Shown here in pieces: positions 4,201-46,257 of a stretch of DNA of 64,000 nt; within the stretch, counting starts at the first letter, position 1; each line of letters opens with the position of its first letter. This DNA is from Acidimicrobiaceae bacterium (lineage in GTDB: Bacteria > Actinomycetota > Acidimicrobiia > Acidimicrobiales > JAUTXP01): positions 33,625 through 97,624 of the forward strand of contig JAUTXP010000052.1 in assembly GCA_030837965.1 (NCBI GenBank), written 5' to 3'. The position numbers and the translations under genes were made by a program. Below the pieces are notes generated by a model. That model did not search any database and was not told the DNA's origin. It saw only the letters and a program-made list of their open reading frames with translations.

Positions 4201-4279
4201 CCCGCGGTTGTTGCAGAACCGCCGCCACCCTGCTGCCGTCGGTCGCGCTGGTTGCGCGGTTGCACCGGACGGTCGGTGA

Positions 4280-4656
<377 letters not shown>

Positions 4657-4828: not shown

Positions 4829-7444
4829 TCAGCGGGCCAGCTTGACCACGTGGGCCGCACCGACATGGCGGTACCGCTCGGGCAGGCAGGTCAGCACCAC
4901 GACCTGCGCATCCTGGGCGGCCATGGACAGCACCGCCCCCAACTTCTCCAGTCGCTTGCTGTCCGACCAGCCCAGCGCGTCGTCCAGGATTACCGGCACG
5001 CCCCCATCCGGGGCCACGATGGCCGCGCAGGCCAGCCTGCTGATCACGCAGAGCTGCTCGCGGGCACCGGTGCTGAGCTGGTCGAACTCGACAGTGACGC
5101 CCCGCAGCGTGCGGCTGGCGATGCGGAGGTCCTCGCCCAGCTCCACGGTGAAGTCGTCGCCGAACACGACCCGGCCGAAGGCCTCGACCTTGGCTTTCAA
5201 CGGAGCCATGTAGGCCCGCCGGGCCTGGCCCCGGCACCGCTCCAACGTCTCGTACAGCCGTCGGGCCGCGGCCGCCCGCCGCTCGGCGGCCCGCCGTTGC
5301 CTGCTCCGGTGCTCCAAGTCGGCCTCGGCCTCGCCCAGCCGGTCGTGCAGGCCTTCCTGCCCCCACAGGGAGAGTCGCTCGCGCACTCGCACCTGTTCTT
5401 CGGCCGTTCCTCGTCGCTCGGCTTCGAGCTTGTCGAACACGGCGGTGGCGTTTTCGAGCGCGCCCTTCAACTCTTCGGGGCGGGCCTTGTCGGCGGCGGC
5501 GTCGGCGTGGGCCAACGCCGCGTCCGCCTTGGCCACCGCCTTCGCGGTGGCGTCCACCCGGCCCGCCAGCACGCCGTCGGGCACTCGCGCCCGCGCCGAC
5601 TCCAAGTCGTGCCGGGCCGACTCCACCTGTCGATGGGCCAACTCCACCTCACGCTCAGCGGCGTCGAACCTGGCCCTTGCCCGCTGCTCGTCACGTCGGC
5701 GCAGCTCGACCTCGTGATGGGCCTCCCGAAGCAGCTCCAAGGCCGCGCCCGCACCGGCTTCTGCCTCTTCGACCAGCCCTCGCGCCGTATCGAAGTCCAA
5801 GGGCGGGCGGGGATCCTCGGCGAGGCGCGCCCGCAGCCGCTCGACCTTGCCCGCCAACCTGTCCGGCGTCAGGTCCCGCAGGTCGGCCGCCATCCGGGTG
5901 GTGAGGCCCTCGCGCTCGAAGGCCGCCTCTCGCCGGGCCGCGGCCGCCGTCTTGGCCTCGCCTACATCGGCCACGCCTGCGGCCGTGCACAGGTCGGCCA
6001 ACCGTCGCTCCGACGCCGCCAACGAGGCGACCAACTGCCCGGCTTCACCCCTCCCCCTGACGGCGATCCGCGCCACCCCGCCCAACTCCATGGCCGACGA
6101 CGGGCCCATGGCCACCGTCGTACTGCCCCCGGCGGGCAAGGCCTCGACCCCGTCGCCCACCCGGATCTCCAATGGCCGCAGCGCCTCCACCTCGACCAGC
6201 GGGCTCTCGCCTTCCAATCGGACTCGGCCCTGCACGACGGCCAAGTGGGCGTCCTCGATGTCCTCCAACACTTCCGGGCCGACACGGTTGTCCTCCAGCA
6301 GCGTGTCGAGCGCCTCCAACGCGGCTTCGGCCTTGCGCACCCGATCCAGCCGTTCGGTCATCTGGGCCAAGTCCAGGCTGTCGCGTGCGAACGTGAAGTC
6401 GGCCTGGGCAGCAGCCAGCCCCGCTTTCGCGGCCTCACCTCGCTCGCTGGCCTCGGCCAGCCGCTCTTCAGCCGCCTGCACCGCGGACACGGCCGACTCC
6501 AACCCAGGACGATGCCGATCCCGCTCCCGCCCGAGCTCCCGGTGCCTGCCCTGGGCCCGATCCAGCGCCTCCACCAAGGCCTGCCGCCGGCTCTGCTCGT
6601 CACACGCGGCCCGATGGTCGGCCGCGGCCAGGTCGGCGGCCAGCTTGGCCTCGGTGACGTCTCGCAAGAGCGCATCGACCGACGCCCACTTCCGCCGGTA
6701 CTCATCCACGCGCCGACCCTGTGCCTCGAGCTCCTCGGCCAAGCCGCCCATATGCCTAGCCAGGTCGGCTGCGTACTCCACGTCGTCTTCCAACTCGGCC
6801 AGGCGACGGCGCAGTTCCTCGACCCTGTTCGCCGCGTCTTGCTCGGCCCGCTGCAGGTCGGCGATCTCGGCTTTGAGCTTGCGCCCCGGCGTGTGGAACC
6901 GGTCGAGCTCGGCCCGGGCCAAGTCGATGAGGGTGGCCTCGCGGTCACCGGCCAAGGTGCCGGCCGATGCGGTGTCGAGTGCGGCGGCCAACGACGTCTG
7001 TTCTGACAGGTCGGCCTGGTCGGGCCGGACGCCCTGCTGGAGGCGCAGGGCCCGCCAAAGGGGAAGGTCGACGGCCTCGTGGAGGATGGCCAACGCCCGC
7101 TCGTGGGCTTCTCGCCCGGTGTGGTTCTCGGGCCGTGGCGCGTGCACGACCAAGGTGGTGGACCGTTCCCGATGGAACCGCTTCGAGTAGGTGAAGCGAT
7201 ATGCCCCCGCCTCGATGTCGACCTCGATCTCGCTTCCCGCGTCCTTGTGCACGGGCTTGACCGCCTTGACCGCCTTGTTCGTGCTGGTATCGAGGTAGTC
7301 GAACAGCAGGTCGAGGGCCTCGGCCAGGCTGGTCTTGCCCACCTCGTTGTCGCCCTCCACCACGGTGACGCCGGTGGCCGGCAGGCGCACCTCGTGCGCC
7401 TCGATGCCGCGGTAGTTGCGCAGCCGGATGCGGGTGATCCTCAT
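4829..7444 (-). CDS. SbcC/Rad50-like SMC-type ATPase lacking a CxxC zinc hook
   Basis: Walker A GDNEVGKTS, signature LSTGAREQL, Walker B VPVILDDAL; long coiled coils with a beta-rich central insert. Confidence 0.85.
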   Translation of the reverse strand: MRITRIRLRNYRGIEAHEVRLPATGVTVVEGDNEVGKTSLAEALDLLFDYLDTSTNKAVKAVKPVHKDAGSEIEVDIEAGAYRFTYSKRFHRERSTTLVVHAPRPENHTGREAHERALAILHEAVDLPLWRALRLQQGVRPDQADLSEQTSLAAALDTASAGTLAGDREATLIDLARAELDRFHTPGRKLKAEIADLQRAEQDAANRVEELRRRLAELEDDVEYAADLARHMGGLAEELEAQGRRVDEYRRKWASVDALLRDVTEAKLAADLAAADHRAACDEQSRRQALVEALDRAQGRHRELGRERDRHRPGLESAVSAVQAAEERLAEASERGEAAKAGLAAAQADFTFARDSLDLAQMTERLDRVRKAEAALEALDTLLEDNRVGPEVLEDIEDAHLAVVQGRVRLEGESPLVEVEALRPLEIRVGDGVEALPAGGSTTVAMGPSSAMELGGVARIAVRGRGEAGQLVASLAASERRLADLCTAAGVADVGEAKTAAAARREAAFEREGLTTRMAADLRDLTPDRLAGKVERLRARLAEDPRPPLDFDTARGLVEEAEAGAGAALELLREAHHEVELRRRDEQRARARFDAAEREVELAHRQVESARHDLESARARVPDGVLAGRVDATAKAVAKADAALAHADAAADKARPEELKGALENATAVFDKLEAERRGTAEEQVRVRERLSLWGQEGLHDRLGEAEADLEHRSRQRRAAERRAAAARRLYETLERCRGQARRAYMAPLKAKVEAFGRVVFGDDFTVELGEDLRIASRTLRGVTVEFDQLSTGAREQLCVISRLACAAIVAPDGGVPVILDDALGWSDSKRLEKLGAVLSMAAQDAQVVVLTCLPERYRHVGAAHVVKLAR

Positions 7445-8562
7445 GCCGCCCCCCTCGCCAGCCGGTACAACAGCGACAGGGCGTCGCGCGCCTCTTCGTC
7501 CCCGGCGCGGCCCGCGGTCTCCAACTCGGCCAACGCCTCATGGGCGAAGCCGGCCAGGCCCAGCTCAGACAGGTCGGCCTCGTCGGGCAGAACCACGACA
7601 CCGCCTGCGGGCTCCCACACGTCGAGCGCTCCAAATAAGGGACGGGCCTGGTCCAGAACCGCGTCGAGCCGTACCCGCTCGGCCAGGCTGACGCCGCCCG
7701 CCAGATCGAGCCGGACCACGGTGTCGGCCTTGTCCGGTCGACCGGCGAGCCAGGCGGCCAGGGCGTGGATGTCCTCGGGCCCGTCGACCGAGAAGGGCTG
7801 GCGCACGAACCGCCATCGCCCGATGTGGTGGGACGTGACAACGGGTGCGCCCGTGTCCGCTGCGTCGATCTCGACGACGAGGGCATTGCCGGGGTCAAGC
7901 TCGTCGAAGTCGGTGGCCTCCGGCGCGCCCGAGTACCAGATGCGCCCTGTCTTGCCGACGGACGTGGTGGAGTGGCGGTCGCCCAAGGCCACGTAGTGGA
8001 CGGCGGCCCGCTCGAGCGCGTCGACGGAGATGAGGGCGGGGTTGTCCCGATCGGGCGAGAGCGAATCGACCGCCCCATGGCCGACCGCGATGCGGACGGT
8101 TCCTGGAGATGGCGGACCGAGGTCGCTCACCGCGGCACCGAGCAGGTCGTGCAAAGGCCGTTTCGACGTCCATGGGGCGGCGACGAGCTCCACGCCAGGC
8201 CTGACCTGGTGCACGCCCGCGCCGCGCAGGATGGACACGTTGGGGGGTGGGTGTTCGAAGGCGGGTGAGGAGTAGATGGAGCCTGCATCGAGCGGGTCGT
8301 GATTGCCAGGCAGAAGGAAGATGGGCACAGGCACGTCGGCCAGGGCCTCGACGGCGCGGCCCACGACTTGGCGGTCGAGTTGGTTGGCCTCGAACACGTC
8401 CCCGCACACGACGATGAACTCGCAGTCGTGGGCTTGGGCCAGCCGTCCAAGGGCGCGCACCGCCTCGATCCGGGCCTGGGAGAAGCGGGCCTGCGCCTCC
8501 GGTGTGAGGAAGCGCCTGCTCATCCCCAGTTGGAGATCGGCGGTATGGACGAATCTGACCAC
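7441..8562 (-). CDS. SbcD/Mre11-like DNA repair metallophosphoesterase
   Basis: FVHTADLQLG, VVCGDVFEAN, LPGNHDPLD, VGHGAVD, ALGDRHST motifs; ATGA overlap with the ATPase gene; GTG start chosen from the FVHTAD context. Confidence 0.88.
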   Translation of the reverse strand: MVRFVHTADLQLGMSRRFLTPEAQARFSQARIEAVRALGRLAQAHDCEFIVVCGDVFEANQLDRQVVGRAVEALADVPVPIFLLPGNHDPLDAGSIYSSPAFEHPPPNVSILRGAGVHQVRPGVELVAAPWTSKRPLHDLLGAAVSDLGPPSPGTVRIAVGHGAVDSLSPDRDNPALISVDALERAAVHYVALGDRHSTTSVGKTGRIWYSGAPEATDFDELDPGNALVVEIDAADTGAPVVTSHHIGRWRFVRQPFSVDGPEDIHALAAWLAGRPDKADTVVRLDLAGGVSLAERVRLDAVLDQARPLFGALDVWEPAGGVVVLPDEADLSELGLAGFAHEALAELETAGRAGDEEARDALSLLYRLARGAA

Positions 8563-13516: not shown

Positions 13517-14131
13517 TCACGGGTGGCAGAGGTTCGTGAGCTCGCTCGTGGCAGCCATAACCGAGTCGGGGTCCGACGCGCGGGACGCGGCCAGGAGTCG
13601 GCTCGCCGCGCCCCGCACGTCGGTTGAGGCCGAGGCCGCGTTTCGCACCACCTCCTCCGGCGACGCGGCCTCGCCTGCCAACGATCTCGACCGGTAGTTG
13701 CGGAAGGCGGCACACGCGGCGCCCCCACTGCCACCACCGCCGACACCACTGCCACCAGCGCCACCGGCAGTGCCCCCGCCGTCCAGTCGCGCCAGGGAGG
13801 CCCGCCCCAACGTCAGGCCCAACGCCACCACCACGACCACGGCAACAGCCGCCAGCACGCGGCCCGACGCGCGGGGGAGCAGCCGGGCTTCCTCCGCGCG
13901 CCGAGCCGAGACGATGGCGGCATCGGCATCGCGTGACGCGGTTCGCCACCACGAACGGTTGGCCGCGCCGCAGCCGCAGCGCCAGGACTCCAAAGAGTCG
14001 GGCACTCGTTGCATGGCATCGCAGCGCGCGCACAGCGCCCACCACCAGACCTGTCCGCACGACTGGCACCGGTGCGACACGGACTGCTCGCCGACTTGTT
14101 GCGCAGTGGCACACCACGGGCACCTGACCAT
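13517..14131 (-). CDS. Zinc-ribbon membrane protein of unknown function, last gene of the pilin operon
   Basis: MVRCPWCATAQQVGEQSVSHRCQSCGQVWWWALCARC zinc-ribbon cysteines, then one TM segment and Gly-rich linker; TGATG overlap with the upstream gene. Confidence 0.65.
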   Translation of the reverse strand: MVRCPWCATAQQVGEQSVSHRCQSCGQVWWWALCARCDAMQRVPDSLESWRCGCGAANRSWWRTASRDADAAIVSARRAEEARLLPRASGRVLAAVAVVVVVALGLTLGRASLARLDGGGTAGGAGGSGVGGGGSGGAACAAFRNYRSRSLAGEAASPEEVVRNAASASTDVRGAASRLLAASRASDPDSVMAATSELTNLCHP

Positions 14132-15333
14132 CAGAAACCCACCGAAGAGGACGGAACCTCGTGCCAATGGCTCACCGTCCAGTTGCGGACCAGCTCGGCC
14201 GACAGGTTCTGGTCGTAGCCCAGGGTGAAGTTGGGGGCGCCGTTGACCTTGACAGAGTTGACGGTGATGGACCCGAACCACGTGGCCCCGCCATTCAGCG
14301 TCAGCTCGCTGGCGGGCGCGTACAGAACGGCCGTCGTCGTCGTGGCGTGCGAGCCATTGCCGAAGTCGAGCGCCCCGCTGCCCGCCTTGTAGATCTGCAG
14401 GTCATTGCCGCGGCCGCCTTGGTTGACGGTGCTGTCGGCCATGGTCAGCCGGTGGTCGGCCGTGACGTACACGATGGCGGGCGGGTTGATGACGGTCACG
14501 TTGCCCACGAACGACACGTCGTGATCGCACACGACAGGCACCCCGCTCATGCCGTTGATCACCGTTGTGAACGCCCCCAACGGCGGGCAGGTCTGCACGC
14601 CGATGGTGGGGACCACGATCGGGTCGAGGACGTACGGCCCCTCCTGCGCCAACGGGTTGGGGCAGCCGATGCACGAGCCCGCGGGCGAGTAGTAGTCCTG
14701 GTAGTCGCCCGCGCCCGAACCAGAGTTGACCACGATGCTTCGGTTCGAGCCGAGATGGGCTTTTCCGGTGTGCGGCCCGCCCGAGGTCGAGTACGAGTAG
14801 ATGTTGAGGCCGCCGTTGCCGTTCAACGTCAGGCCCTGGTTGGAGAACAATGCGTACGGGAACTTCTGGCGCCGCGACACCGTCGCCTCCACGGCATGGG
14901 CCGAGCCGTTGATGACGCCCTTCACCTTCACCACGTAGCGGTCGTCGCTCTGTCGTGTGGCCACGTACTGGAAGGCACCGCCGCCCACCGATCCTGCGCC
15001 TGAGATGTTGGTCGACGCGGCCTGGTCGATGCGGAACAAGGCGTCGGACAGACCGCCGTCGGCCGTGGCCAAGGCGGCGACGAAGTCCTGGCCTCGACGG
15101 ACCTGGTTCAGCGAGACCAGGGACCGGGCCAACACGGCGACCGACAGCGTGCTCAGCACGAGCATGACCATCATGGCCACCGCGATCGAGCCCTCCTCGT
15201 CGATGCCGATACGCCCACAGGAACAGGGCGGCCCACTCTCCGGGCCCGGAGCCCAAAGCCGACCCCTAAGCCGACGCCAAAGCCGATCCCGACGGCACCC
15301 ACGCCCGCGCCGCCCGCACACTGGCCTCAACAT
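14131..15333 (-). CDS. PilX-like pilus-assembly/secreted protein
   Basis: EEGSIAVAMMVMLVLSTLSVAVLARSLVSLNQVRRGQDF N-terminal TM, then large beta-rich domain; position in pilin operon; exact start uncertain. Confidence 0.6.
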   Translation of the reverse strand: MLRPVCGRRGRGCRRDRLWRRLRGRLWAPGPESGPPCSCGRIGIDEEGSIAVAMMVMLVLSTLSVAVLARSLVSLNQVRRGQDFVAALATADGGLSDALFRIDQAASTNISGAGSVGGGAFQYVATRQSDDRYVVKVKGVINGSAHAVEATVSRRQKFPYALFSNQGLTLNGNGGLNIYSYSTSGGPHTGKAHLGSNRSIVVNSGSGAGDYQDYYSPAGSCIGCPNPLAQEGPYVLDPIVVPTIGVQTCPPLGAFTTVINGMSGVPVVCDHDVSFVGNVTVINPPAIVYVTADHRLTMADSTVNQGGRGNDLQIYKAGSGALDFGNGSHATTTTAVLYAPASELTLNGGATWFGSITVNSVKVNGAPNFTLGYDQNLSAELVRNWTVSHWHEVPSSSVGF

Positions 15334-15941
15334 CCGACCCCTCCGGGCAGGCGGTTGCGCAACTCGCCGTCAGACTCGCTGCGGAACGGCTGCGGGCCAG
15401 GCGCGCTGTCGGCGTACAGGGTGATGTGCACGCGGATGGTGCAGTTGGCGAAGTCGGCCGCGGTGGCCGTGGTCGACGTCAGCTCGGTGCCCGCCGAGTT
15501 GTAGTACCGGAACAACGGGATGCCGGCGTCGCCGTTGCGCACGCGGCTCAACGAGTACGTCGTCGCCGTCACCGATCCGCCTGGGGCGGCAAGCGTCTGA
15601 CGGCGCACGACCCCGCTGGCCGACTCGAAGTCCCAACGCACATACGCCTGATGCGATCCGCTGGTCGTCTTCAACTCCAGTTCCATCGTGTCGCGATATG
15701 TCGCGGTCGTGGCCAGAGGAAGGAGGGGATCGGCGGCGCGCACGTCGCGGGCGATGGCGACCAGCGCATACCGGACGTCCTCTTGATTGTCCACGCTGGC
15801 CCGGAGCCTGCGTTCGGCCTTGGTCTGGGTGTTGAGCAGGCCCAACAGCGTGGTGAGGACCACGAGCAACAGCATCGAGGCCGTTGCTGTCTCCACCACC
15901 GTGAACCCGGCTTCACTCGGCCGCGCTGGGATCATGGGCAT
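15327..15941 (-). CDS. PilW-like type IV pilin / pseudopilin
   Basis: MPMIPARPSEAGFTVVETATASMLLLVVLTTLLGLLNTQTKAERRLRAS prepilin-type G-FTxxE motif and hydrophobic helix. Confidence 0.8.
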   Translation of the reverse strand: MPMIPARPSEAGFTVVETATASMLLLVVLTTLLGLLNTQTKAERRLRASVDNQEDVRYALVAIARDVRAADPLLPLATTATYRDTMELELKTTSGSHQAYVRWDFESASGVVRRQTLAAPGGSVTATTYSLSRVRNGDAGIPLFRYYNSAGTELTSTTATAADFANCTIRVHITLYADSAPGPQPFRSESDGELRNRLPGGVGC

Positions 15942-17113
15942 GTCTTCGCGTTGTGGACGCAGACGGTCAGGGTCAAAGCGCCGAGGACGTTGCCGCCGCC
16001 GTCCACGACCTGGACCTGGTGCGTCCCGGTGTCCCACGCCGTCGTGATGCCGTTGACCGTCCCCACCCACACGCCCGTCGTCCCGGCGATGAGGTAGGCG
16101 GTGTTGGTCGAGCCGCTGCGGGCCGAGTACCGGAGTTGCAAGCCCGAGCACACGCCAGTCGCGTTCACGCTGGCCACCGCGTCTGCCGACAGCAGGGTCG
16201 ACGCGCCGTTGAGGCGGTTGACGGCCGAGGGCGTCAACGTGGCCGTGCCCAGTTGGCACACAGTCGCCAGTGTCGAGGTGGTCGTGGCCAGCGCCATCAC
16301 CGACCACGACGACTGAAGCCCGTTGGCCGCCTTGGCCGCCACACGGAACTGGTACGCGGTCGACGCGGACAGGCCGGTCGCCGAATACGAGGTGACCGAC
16401 GCGGGCTGTGTGTCCGTGAGCAGATGGGCAGTGGCGAACGAGTCGGTCGAGAACTGCACCACCCACGTGCTGACCGGCGGGGTGCTGATCGGGTTGGGCG
16501 TCCAGGCCAGGTCCACGGTCGACGCGCCCGAAGCGCCAGTCGGCACCGTCGCGGCGAGGGCCAGCGGCGGCGAAGGGGGCACCGGCGACGCCACCACCGT
16601 CGTCGTGGTCGTCACTCCTCCTTGTGGCCCGGTGTAGACGCCCTGTCCGCCCGGATACACGAACGCCTCTTGCCGCACGGCGTGGGCCATGGCCTGGTCG
16701 CTCCACGTCACGACCACCACCACGCGCTTGTAGGCCTGGGCGTAGCCCGCGGTGGATGCGGCGTCGGCCCACACGACCTGTCGCGCGAACTGGAACGTCA
16801 TCCCGCCCAGCACCTGGTCCGGGCCGAAAGGCTGGACGACCGGGTCGCCCACCACGACGGTGACCGCGCCCTCGAACGCCGGGGTGAAGCCGGCCTGCAC
16901 CGGGCTGAAGCCGAGCCGGTCGTAGGGGACGGCGCGCATGGCCTCCGCCTCCTTGGTGGCCAAGGCCACGGCCCGGGAGCGGTTGTTGCCCTCGCTGGCA
17001 ACGGCGAAGGACGCGTGGAACACATGCACGACGCTGCCGATGCCGATGCTCAGGATGGTCAACGCCATCATCAGCTCCACCAACGTGAAGCCATCGTCGC
17101 GCCGGTCGCGCAT
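15932..17113 (-). CDS. PilV-like type IV pilin with C-terminal fibronectin type III-like domain
   Basis: MRDRRDDGFTLVELMMALTILSIGIGSVVHVFHAS prepilin signal; STVDLAWTPNPIST...YSATGLSASTAYQFRVAAKAANGLQS Fn3-like repeat. Confidence 0.82.
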   Translation of the reverse strand: MRDRRDDGFTLVELMMALTILSIGIGSVVHVFHASFAVASEGNNRSRAVALATKEAEAMRAVPYDRLGFSPVQAGFTPAFEGAVTVVVGDPVVQPFGPDQVLGGMTFQFARQVVWADAASTAGYAQAYKRVVVVVTWSDQAMAHAVRQEAFVYPGGQGVYTGPQGGVTTTTTVVASPVPPSPPLALAATVPTGASGASTVDLAWTPNPISTPPVSTWVVQFSTDSFATAHLLTDTQPASVTSYSATGLSASTAYQFRVAAKAANGLQSSWSVMALATTTSTLATVCQLGTATLTPSAVNRLNGASTLLSADAVASVNATGVCSGLQLRYSARSGSTNTAYLIAGTTGVWVGTVNGITTAWDTGTHQVQVVDGGGNVLGALTLTVCVHNAKTCP

Positions 17114-17127
17114 ATGCCACACCTCCA

Positions 17128-17220
17128 GGCGGCCCGGCCGGCCTTCCCCGTGAGGGGGGTGGGCCCCGTGGCTTTGCGTCCCCGCCTTCCGACGGGTTTG
17201 CCTTTGTTCGGGAGTCGCCG
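17128..17220 (-). promoter_or_regulatory. c-di-GMP-I (GEMM-I) riboswitch in the leader of the pilin operon
   Basis: Reverse complement GGCGACTCCCGAACAAAGGCAAACCCGTCGGAAGGCGGGGACGCAAAGCCACGGGGCCC...GGCCGGCCGGGCCGCC: conserved GGCAAACC, GNRA loop (GGAA), GGGACGCAAAGCC; P1 GGCG[ACT]CCCG/CGGG[C]CGCC; GGAGG RBS directly follows. Confidence 0.92.
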
Positions 17221-17391
17221 TCTCTATCGACAAAACCACGCTCTGCGTTATATCGATCCGTGGAAATGGTCCGACCGGGCCAGGAGCCATAGCCCGATGT
17301 GACCCCGCCCGCGGCGACTACGGGCCCAGGCGGAATGACTGCCGGCCGCGTCGGCGGGCGGCCTTCACAACCCGGCTTCTAGGCTGCGGCC

Positions 17392-20625: not shown

Positions 20626-21504
20626 TCAGGCCGCAGCCGCCCGTGACCTGCGCACCAGGAACGTCCCGGTGCCCAGGAGGGCGACAGCCGCCAGCGCCAG
20701 CGTGAGCAAGTCCGCGCCGGCTCCCGTCAGCGGCAGGGCGGCACTGCCCCGAACCGCTTGTGCGCCCATGACCGCGGTGCCCGAGCCGCCCCCGCCCCGC
20801 GTCTCCGCTGAGGCCAGGACTGCGCCGGATGCCGCGCCCGCCGGCGCGATGTCAGCCCGCTCGAAGCCGACGCCCTCGACCTGGGTGACAATGCAGTCCC
20901 GCGAGTCGATGACCCCGTCCCCGTTGGCGTCGACGGCCATCTGGCCGCCTGCGCACTCGGTTGCAGGCTTGGGTGCGTCGTCGGCCGAGTGGCCGCCCGA
21001 CATCTCGGTGCCGCCGACCACAGGGGGCGGCGTATGGGTGGAGCCCGTCGAGCCGGAGCCGGTCGTGCCGGAGCCCGTCGAGCCGGTGCCCGTCGAGCCG
21101 GAGCCCGTCGAGCCCGTGCGGCAACCGGTGTGGGCCGGGTTGGATCGCCCGACGCCATGGTTGCCATCACACTCATAGCCATTGTTGTGGTCAGACCCGC
21201 CGGGCGCCTGGCCCTTGGGGTTCTTGTTGTCGGCCTTGCCGACACAGCCCGCGCAGGGCTTGCCCTTTGCCTCTCCTCCACCGTTGCCGTTGCCCGACGG
21301 CGAGCCGTCACGGGTGCTGTCGTACGACCCGTGCTGGTTGGCGCCGTGACCTGAGTAGTCGGCGTTGGACGCGGGCTGGGGGGAGGAGGTGTCTGTGTCG
21401 TGCTTGGGGGCGGCCGATGCAACACCGGTCAGTAGGAAGAGGCCAACGGCGACTCCGCAGATGAATGTGACGACGCGTCGAAGACTGGTCGTATTGGTGG
21501 ACAC
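20626..21504 (-). CDS. Secreted, LPXTG-like cell-wall-anchored protein with GSTGSGSTG repeats and EF-hand-like loop
   Basis: Signal peptide VVTFICGVAVGLFLLTGVASAA; VDANGDGVIDSRDC; C-terminal LPLTGAGADLLTLALAAVALLGTGTFLVRRSRAAAA. Confidence 0.75.
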   Translation of the reverse strand: MSTNTTSLRRVVTFICGVAVGLFLLTGVASAAPKHDTDTSSPQPASNADYSGHGANQHGSYDSTRDGSPSGNGNGGGEAKGKPCAGCVGKADNKNPKGQAPGGSDHNNGYECDGNHGVGRSNPAHTGCRTGSTGSGSTGTGSTGSGTTGSGSTGSTHTPPPVVGGTEMSGGHSADDAPKPATECAGGQMAVDANGDGVIDSRDCIVTQVEGVGFERADIAPAGAASGAVLASAETRGGGGSGTAVMGAQAVRGSAALPLTGAGADLLTLALAAVALLGTGTFLVRRSRAAAA

Positions 21505-21800
21505 TGCTTGCTCCCGTCCGGTAGAGGAGGCGCAGGATGCGCCTCGTGCTGGGCGGGTCGGTCGCGCCACTCACTCCCCGTGCGGTCTAGGCGCCCGCTT
21601 TGTCTCCGTGCCCCTGGCTGGGGCCGGTGAGGATCGCACGGATCAATGCTTCCCTGTCGGGCCTCGCCGCCGGCTCCGGATGCCGCCGTCGTGATCCGAC
21701 GGTGGATACATCGGTCGACCACTCTCCGTGCTTGAGGAGGATGTGGCCCGATTGGGCCAGGCGTGTCACCGCCCGCCTCTGCGCTCTATGCGGTCGGCCG

Positions 21801-43935: not shown

Positions 43936-44097
43936 GCCTTCTTATCGACGGCGCCCCCGGCGCCCTGAGCGGCCGGCAATCCGGGCCGTGGGTGACTAGC
44001 CCGATTTGACGGTGGCGCTCTCAAGGAACTCGGCCAGTCCGCCGATCAACCGGAAACGGCACCCAGCGTGGGCGCCGTCACCTGAGGAGGAGGTTCC

Positions 44098-44259: not shown

Positions 44260-46257
44260 TTGAGGCTCGTTCGTCTGCAACCGGTTCAGCGATACGTCGG
44301 CGGCGTCATCGTCGTGGGCCTGACCGCGCTCGCCCTCATCGTCGCTTCCGGCTTCAGCCACCTTCTGCACGGGCCCCTCGGCCACGTGGCCGTGTTCACC
44401 CCTCTCGTGGTGCTGGGCGAGCTGGTCCCCATCCGGGTCCGCCGCCACGACGTGGAGGAGGAGGTCACGGTCTCCACGCCGTTCGCCTTCACCTTGCTGC
44501 TCACGTCCGGGCCCGCGGCCGCGGCCCTGGCCTTGGCCGTGGCGTCATGCGTGGCCGACATGGCCGGGCGCAAGCCGCTGTGGAAGGCCTTGTTCAACAT
44601 GGGCCAGTTCTCGCTTTCGGTCGGTGCGTCCGGGGCCGTGCTCACCGGGCTGGGAACCTTCGGCCCGCACCACCACCTGACTCCTGACCAGTTGCCGGTG
44701 ATCGGCGTGGCCGCGGCCGTCTTCTTCGCCGTCAACAACGTGGTGACGGGCACTGGCATCGCGCTGGCCGCCAAGAAGAACGTGGCCGAGTTCCTCCGGC
44801 GCGACCTGCTCTTCCAAATGGGCACCACGGGCGTGCTGTTGACGCTGGCGCCCATCGTGATGTCCGCGGCCGACGACACGCTGCTGCTCGTCCCCCTGCT
44901 CCTTCTGCCCATCGCCGCCGTGCACACGTGTGCGTCGACCTTGTTGGCCAAGGAGTACGAGGCCCTGCACGACCCGCTCACCGCGCTGGCCAACCGGCGG
45001 CTGTTTCGGGACCGGACCATCGAGGCCCTCGACGAAGCGGCCCGAACCAAGACCGTCACCGCGGTCATGCTCATCGACCTCGACCGGTTCAAGGAGGTCA
45101 ACGACACGCTCGGCCATCACATGGGCGACGTGCTGTTGCAGCAGATCGGGCCGCGCCTCTCCGGTGTGCTGCGCGAGTCAGACACCATCGCCCGACCGGG
45201 CGGCGACGAGTTCGCCGTGCTCCTGCCCGACGTCCAGGGGGAGCTGGCGGCCATGGAGATCGCCGACCGCATGCTGGAGGCGCTCGAACAGCACTTCACG
45301 TTGCCCGAGGTCCTGCTCGACATCGACGCCAGCATCGGCATCGCCTTGTCGCCCGTGCACGGCATGGACGTGGACACGCTGATGCAGCGGGCCGACGTGG
45401 CCATGTATCTGGCCAAGGAGACGAAGAGCGGCTACCAGGTCTACGCACCCGAGCGCGACCCGTACAGCCCCAAGCACCTTCGGCTGCTGCACGACCTGCG
45501 CCATGCCATCGAGTCAGACCAGTTCGTGCTGCACTACCAGCCCAAGGCCGCGCTGGGCAGCGGGTCGATCATCGGCGTGGAGGCCTTGGTGCGCTGGCAG
45601 CATCCTGAGCAAGGCCTGATCCCGCCGGACGACTTCGTCCCGTTGGCTGAGCGAAGCGGGCTGTCCCGGCCTCTGACCCTGTTCGTGCTCAACGAGTCGC
45701 TCCGCCAGTTGCACGAGTGGCGGAAGGAGGGCATTCACCTGCGCGTGGCCGTCAACCTGACGGGGCGCAACCTCCACGACCCCAACTTCCCGATCGACGT
45801 GGCCAAGCTCCTCGAAGCGTGGGACATCCCCGCGGGCGACCTGCTGCTCGAGATCACCGAGAACAGCGTGATGTCCGACCCGGCGCGCGTCCTCGGCGTG
45901 CTGAAGGCGCTGCGTGAGATGGGCGTGGAGCTGGCCCTGGACGACTTCGGCACCGGGTACTCCTCGCTCGCCTACCTGAAGCGGCTGCCCGTGCACGAGC
46001 TGAAGATCGACAAGTCGTTCGTGATGAACATGGCGGGTGACGAGAGCGACGCGGTGATCGTGCAGTCGACCATCGGCCTGGCCCGCAACCTCAAGCTGCG
46101 GGTCGTGGCCGAGGGCGTGGAGGACAAGGCCGCGTGGGACGAGCTCGTCGCCCTCGGCTGCGACGTGGCCCAGGGCTACTTCCTCGGCCGGCCCATGGCC
46201 GCGGCGGCCATGACCGAATGGCTGCGGAACGCCGCGGCCGTCGCCGCCGCCCACTAG
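44260..46257 (+). CDS. Membrane GGDEF-EAL c-di-GMP turnover protein
   Basis: N-terminal multi-TM sensor region; [61 protein letters not shown] start inferred. Confidence 0.95.

Follow-up and report, generated by a model that had tools for sequence, protein, structure and literature searches.

Does c-di-GMP control the minor-pilin operon that lies on the minus strand of a 64,000-nucleotide stretch of DNA (the window) from an Acidimicrobiaceae bacterium, and if so, at which steps and in which direction? The source assembly, which comprises 88 contigs and is 97.9% complete, belongs to the Actinomycetota, class Acidimicrobiia, in keeping with the actinobacterial host claimed in a preliminary description of this DNA. 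That description had also placed a c-di-GMP-I (GEMM-I) riboswitch in the minus-strand leader of the operon and proposed a cmscan run with RF01051. The run returned a match at 17212-17125(-), 12 nt ahead of the operon, which spans the full model (1-87 of 87) and at 57.9 bits lies far above the gathering score of 35 (E = 9.9e-9 with the whole 64 kb window as search space). The contact bases of the aptamer are all present (G20 at 17202, A47 at 17175 and C92 at 17129), and among the 66 GEMM-I elements of the class they are conserved in 64, 66 and 66 cases, respectively, with C93 likewise conserved. Base 20, which from Vc2 and GEMM-Ib we take to be the ligand-specificity position, is A in cGAMP-type GEMM-I elements and G in the window element. 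With G20, A47 and C92 intact, the aptamer presumably binds its ligand, and that ligand should be c-di-GMP rather than cGAMP.

Behind the aptamer, four genes were found on the minus strand, each junction being an ATGA or another overlap of a few bases. The first (15932-17113(-), 393 aa) encodes a pilV-like minor pilin with a prepilin N-terminal methylation motif (N_methyl, PF07963; 6.6e-8) and a C-terminal Fn3 domain (fn3; 6.2e-7); it is followed by a pilW-like pseudopilin (15327-15941(-), 204 aa) with a weak match to the HpsC pseudopilin model (4.6e-4), a pilX-like protein with DUF7305 (14131-15333(-), 400 aa; PF23981, 6.9e-13) and a zinc-ribbon protein that appears to have a single membrane segment (13517-14131(-), 204 aa), for which no Pfam or NCBIfam family was found. 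The reading frames and the N_methyl, fn3 and DUF7305 matches thus bear out the overlapping pilV-like(Fn3), pilW-like, pilX-like and zinc-ribbon order given in the preliminary description. As the pilV-like protein scores under the cutoff of TIGR02523 (PilV, type_IV_pilV; 4e-6, 27.3 bits against 52.2), the gene names are used only as '-like' and not as equivalogs. A 452-aa open frame that runs through the aptamer from 17290 was dismissed as a chance product of high G+C, because the pilA leaders of this genome use another frame across the shared core and because the prepilin leader begins at 17113.

The operon is a duplicate of the minor-pilin set pilV-pilW-pilX that ends the main type IV pilus cluster on contig 51, with identities between the two copies of 45% (pilV), 46% (pilW) and 44% (pilX). 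The zinc-ribbon gene is found only in the riboswitch-bearing copy and is missing from the contig-51 duplicate. An Rfam scan of the contig-51 minor-pilin operon gave no RNA family match, and a WhiG-like site (TCAA-N16-GGCGATAC) is located 7 nt ahead of its first ATG, so close that the leader cannot hold an aptamer.

The layout of the window leader bears on the direction of control. Helix P1, which is outside the Rfam model RF01051, was located by constrained folding and duplex folding, with its 5′ strand (CUCCCG) at 17209-17214(-) and its 3′ strand (CUGGAG) at 17123-17128(-). The GGAG of the latter is part of the Shine-Dalgarno (SD) sequence GGAGGUG (17120-17126(-)), which precedes the ATG at 17113 by 6 nt. 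A plausible P1 had been described previously as having a 3′ strand that abuts the GGAGG; the helix was recovered, but the strand does not abut, since CUGGAG at 17128-17123 includes the GGAG. When P2 and P3 were enforced, the minimum-energy fold of the short window leader contained P1, which was made up of CUCC:GGAG and one further G-C pair beside C92. Over the 66 leaders of the class, the mean duplex energy of P1 was −8.3 kcal/mol for own strands and −6.8 kcal/mol for swapped strands, the own-strand mean being matched by 0 of 1000 permutations, a result that sequence relatedness may inflate.

Because the 3′ strand of P1 holds the GGAG of the SD, a ligand-stabilised P1 should mask the SD, and we infer from this P1-SD overlap that the switch has OFF polarity. 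The preliminary description had regarded polarity as unreadable from sequence; this anatomy points to a probable one, although folding energies do not settle it. With the SD inside P1 and no space for a terminator, the leader is most naturally read as controlling translation, as had been suggested, and the aptamer appears to have no separate expression platform. Such a layout would rank among the simplest possible expression platforms of GEMM-I.

In folds of the longer window leader the SD was mostly paired (open 0.25 unconstrained and 0.22 with P1-P3 enforced), and the fold energies of longer leaders gave no sign of switching and no separation of polarities. In the unconstrained longer fold, the SD was paired with a C-rich P3 segment, which would suit the same riboswitch acting as an ON switch: the SD would be held by the P3 segment in the ligand-free state and freed once the ligand re-forms P3. 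Class I c-di-GMP switches do work in both directions in other bacteria, ON switches included (PMC6366702). However, a ligand-stabilised P1 would take the GGAG from the same SD, and the predicted WhiG-RsiG arm described below is an OFF arm for c-di-GMP; an ON switch is therefore considered unlikely, while still a serious contender.

Upstream of the aptamer, a sigma-28/WhiG-type promoter was predicted at 17224-17250(-), consisting of a −35 element TAAC (17250-17247), N15 and a −10 element GTCGATAG (17231-17224), with a predicted transcription start at about 17220-17216(-). The search used a consensus, TAAA-N15/16-GCCGATAA, that was fixed beforehand and taken from a study of Rubrobacter, in which TAAA-N15-GCCGATAA served as FliA/WhiG consensus with up to two mismatches allowed (PMC8325347). 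TAAC-N15-GTCGATAG has 9 of 12 matches to it, that is, three mismatches. At least 9 of 12 matches were found in 37 of the 66 GEMM-I leaders of the class, as compared with 1.0% of random windows and 1.9% of G+C-matched windows, and 11 of the 66 were within two mismatches (10/12; controls about 0.2%). WhiG-type sites were found in 20 of 25 pilin leaders and 17 of 41 other GEMM-I leaders, and in 21 of 33 genomes; the −10 box mostly ends 7-22 nt ahead of the aptamer, and the class form of the motif is TCAA-N16-GCCGATAc. The c-di-GMP-II-GAG leaders of the same class provide an internal contrast: at 21 sampled loci, 9/12 was reached in just three, and in each of these the box directly adjoins the aptamer. 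Thus the WhiG-type sites are associated with GEMM-I and not to c-di-GMP riboswitches in general.

The proteins expected to act at such a promoter are encoded in the genome. One sigma factor scores above the FliA/WhiG cutoff, namely a WhiG equivalog (NF004935; 388 bits against a cutoff of 343), whose gene adjoins rpsB-tsf and whose best PDB match is WhiG as solved in complex with RsiG from Streptomyces. On contig 83, a homologue of the anti-sigma factor RsiG was found, which matches PF22802 (74.7 bits against a cutoff of 27) in two stretches, as twin repeats, and solved RsiG (PDB 6pfj) at 5.7e-15. Its c-di-GMP motifs, of the form E(X)3S(X)2R(X)3Q(X)3D, are partly altered: in motif 1 Ala replaces the first Glu, and in motif 2 His and Asn replace Gln and Asp. 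This homologue may nonetheless bind c-di-GMP. It was found with a protein consensus of the RsiG motif, which had matched solved RsiG chains at 2.7e-12 before use; across the class, this query matches 245 of 396 genomes. A DNA pattern built from exact codons of the motif was rejected, as it gave 5 matches against 3 in the control, none of them in a plausible gene. Twin-motif RsiG has been reported in three of four Acidimicrobiales, and the type IV pili of Rubrobacter are under the control of RsiG-(c-di-GMP)-WhiG (PMC8325347).

The predicted promoter is probably used by WhiG. The riboswitch might be real and the TCAA-N16-GCCGATAc motif be read by another sigma factor or an activator, with no second c-di-GMP gate. 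The class −35 element is TCAA and not TAAA, other sigma-70-family proteins are encoded in the genome and the RsiG motif residues are partly altered, all of which would fit. Yet the −10 element has the form GCCGATA that is canonical for FliA/WhiG promoters, the sole FliA/WhiG-type factor above the cutoff is WhiG, and no flagellin was found in the genome, so that a reader other than WhiG has a minor, if appreciable, chance of being correct.

The reading preferred here, which we consider fairly probable, is that the duplicated minor-pilin operon stands under a WhiG-type promoter and a 5′-end GEMM-I riboswitch that are both OFF when c-di-GMP is high. The WhiG-type promoter would start transcription a few nucleotides ahead of P1 and thereby place the c-di-GMP-I riboswitch at the extreme 5′ end of the operon mRNA. 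At low c-di-GMP, WhiG would be released from its anti-sigma factor RsiG and transcribe the operon, and an unstable P1 would leave GGAGGUG accessible to the ribosome. At high c-di-GMP, RsiG-(c-di-GMP) would hold WhiG so that transcription falls, and in leftover mRNA the ligand would stabilise P1 over the GGAG of the SD, so that pilV and the genes coupled to it stay untranslated. Since the riboswitch appears to be combined with a promoter type controlled by RsiG-WhiG, which is another c-di-GMP sensor, one signal may gate the pili twice, and two successive c-di-GMP gates of equal sign are the best-supported reading of the locus. If so, two receptors for one ligand on one gene set would yield clear predictions on the steepness and the memory of the pilus decision.

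A broader proposal, held tentatively and somewhat short of an even chance, is that pilins of the Acidimicrobiia are gated by c-di-GMP at both initiation and translation, and that tip composition is changed via the riboswitch-bearing versus the riboswitch-free copy of the minor-pilin set. Were this true, the duplicated set would let c-di-GMP alter the composition of the pilus tip, beyond pilus number alone. GEMM-I elements were found in 35 of the 396 class genomes, and the first gene behind such an element mostly encodes a pilA-type major pilin, a CAP-domain protein or some other protein that is secreted or located at the surface. No GEMM-I element directly precedes a pilV homologue in the other 395 class genomes searched, so that the exact GEMM-I-pilV arrangement rests on one genome, the family of the window being represented by that single genome. 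In one class genome (G285), a GEMM-I element and a pilV homologue lie about 4 kb apart within one cluster.

Being a second copy, the window operon could in principle be decaying or silent, with a riboswitch of no regulatory effect, as some riboswitches of C. difficile are non-functional (PMC6366702); this is very improbable, given that all four frames are open, that no change affects the prepilin motif, the SD or any of the contact bases, and that the copy is uninterrupted in spite of strong divergence. Most improbable of all is an aptamer that senses 3′,3′-cGAMP in place of c-di-GMP: GEMM-Ib members in Geobacter do so on the same GEMM-I scaffold (PMC8835794), but they differ at base 20, which is G in the window element and nearly throughout the class.

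The double-gated operon proposed above was compared with known systems. Both proposed gates belong to types already known to sense c-di-GMP, namely GEMM-I riboswitches and the RsiG-WhiG switch. The window element resembles other RF01051 members in its full-length match, contact bases, P1-P2-P3 layout and location in the 5′ leader of a surface-appendage gene, but differs in that the 3′ strand of P1 itself forms part of the SD and in that the predicted promoter is of WhiG type. Cdi2_4 (pilA1) of C. difficile is likewise a c-di-GMP riboswitch over type IV pilus genes, whereas it belongs to c-di-GMP-II, acts through transcription termination and turns pili ON with ligand (PMC6366702), the window element being class I. 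With the Rubrobacter RsiG-(c-di-GMP)-WhiG system the locus shares WhiG-type promoters on pilus genes, which are predicted here, and the presence of WhiG and RsiG homologues; here, however, the twin-motif RsiG has changed residues and a GEMM-I riboswitch lies downstream of the promoter. The word riboswitch is absent from the Rubrobacter paper (PMC8325347), and no description of GEMM-I and RsiG-WhiG on the same transcripts was found in the open-licence full text of PubMed Central. The riboswitch itself is a further member of a known family and stands in a suitable location; what appears new within that literature is that GEMM-I is coupled to WhiG-type promoters and that the SD lies within P1 ahead of a duplicated minor-pilin set.

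Six GEMM-I elements above the cutoff were found in the assembly; the five outside the window, like the duplicate operon and the WhiG-type site, go beyond the preliminary description. Three of them are on contig 51, about 0.8 kb apart, one before each of three tandem pilA genes (contig 51 (L007), 6738-8487) that are flanked by pilC and the gene for the prepilin peptidase. The window aptamer is most similar (68%) to one of these pilA aptamers, which suggests that it may have been recruited from a pilA leader. The pilA leaders have the CCUGGAGG aptamer end in common with the window element, but their translation starts 80-90 nt further on, so that their expression platform differs from that of the window. 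The contig-51 cluster also includes pilM and a pilus ATPase with an MshEN domain; MshEN binds c-di-GMP, and the domain may constitute a third control point. The two further elements lie ahead of genes for secreted proteins, one with a CAP domain and the other GH5-like. These CAP/GH-type leaders (L008 8603-8692 and L009 6288-6371) have another P1 (CCCACG/CGAAUGGG), and in the former a downstream CCUCC has either the SD or the 3′ strand of P1 as a possible pairing partner, that is, another expression platform.

Several other features were observed. GGDEF matches number 27 in the genome, and the best WhiG-consensus site of the window (44021-44048(+), TCAA-N16-GCCGATCA, 10/12) is located about 210 nt upstream of a gene for a GGDEF-EAL protein (44260-46257(+)); WhiG promoters in Rubrobacter were also found before cyclase and phosphodiesterase genes. 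A second c-di-GMP riboswitch of the window, c-di-GMP-II-GAG (RF03169; 21662-21547(-), 41.9 bits against 40), is separated from the GEMM-I element by 4.3 kb and precedes a 314-aa secreted protein (20626-21570) with an LPLTG-like C-terminal anchor; RF03169 is found in 98 of the 396 class genomes. The window also harbours an RNase P RNA class A gene at 4279-4652(-) (214.8 bits).
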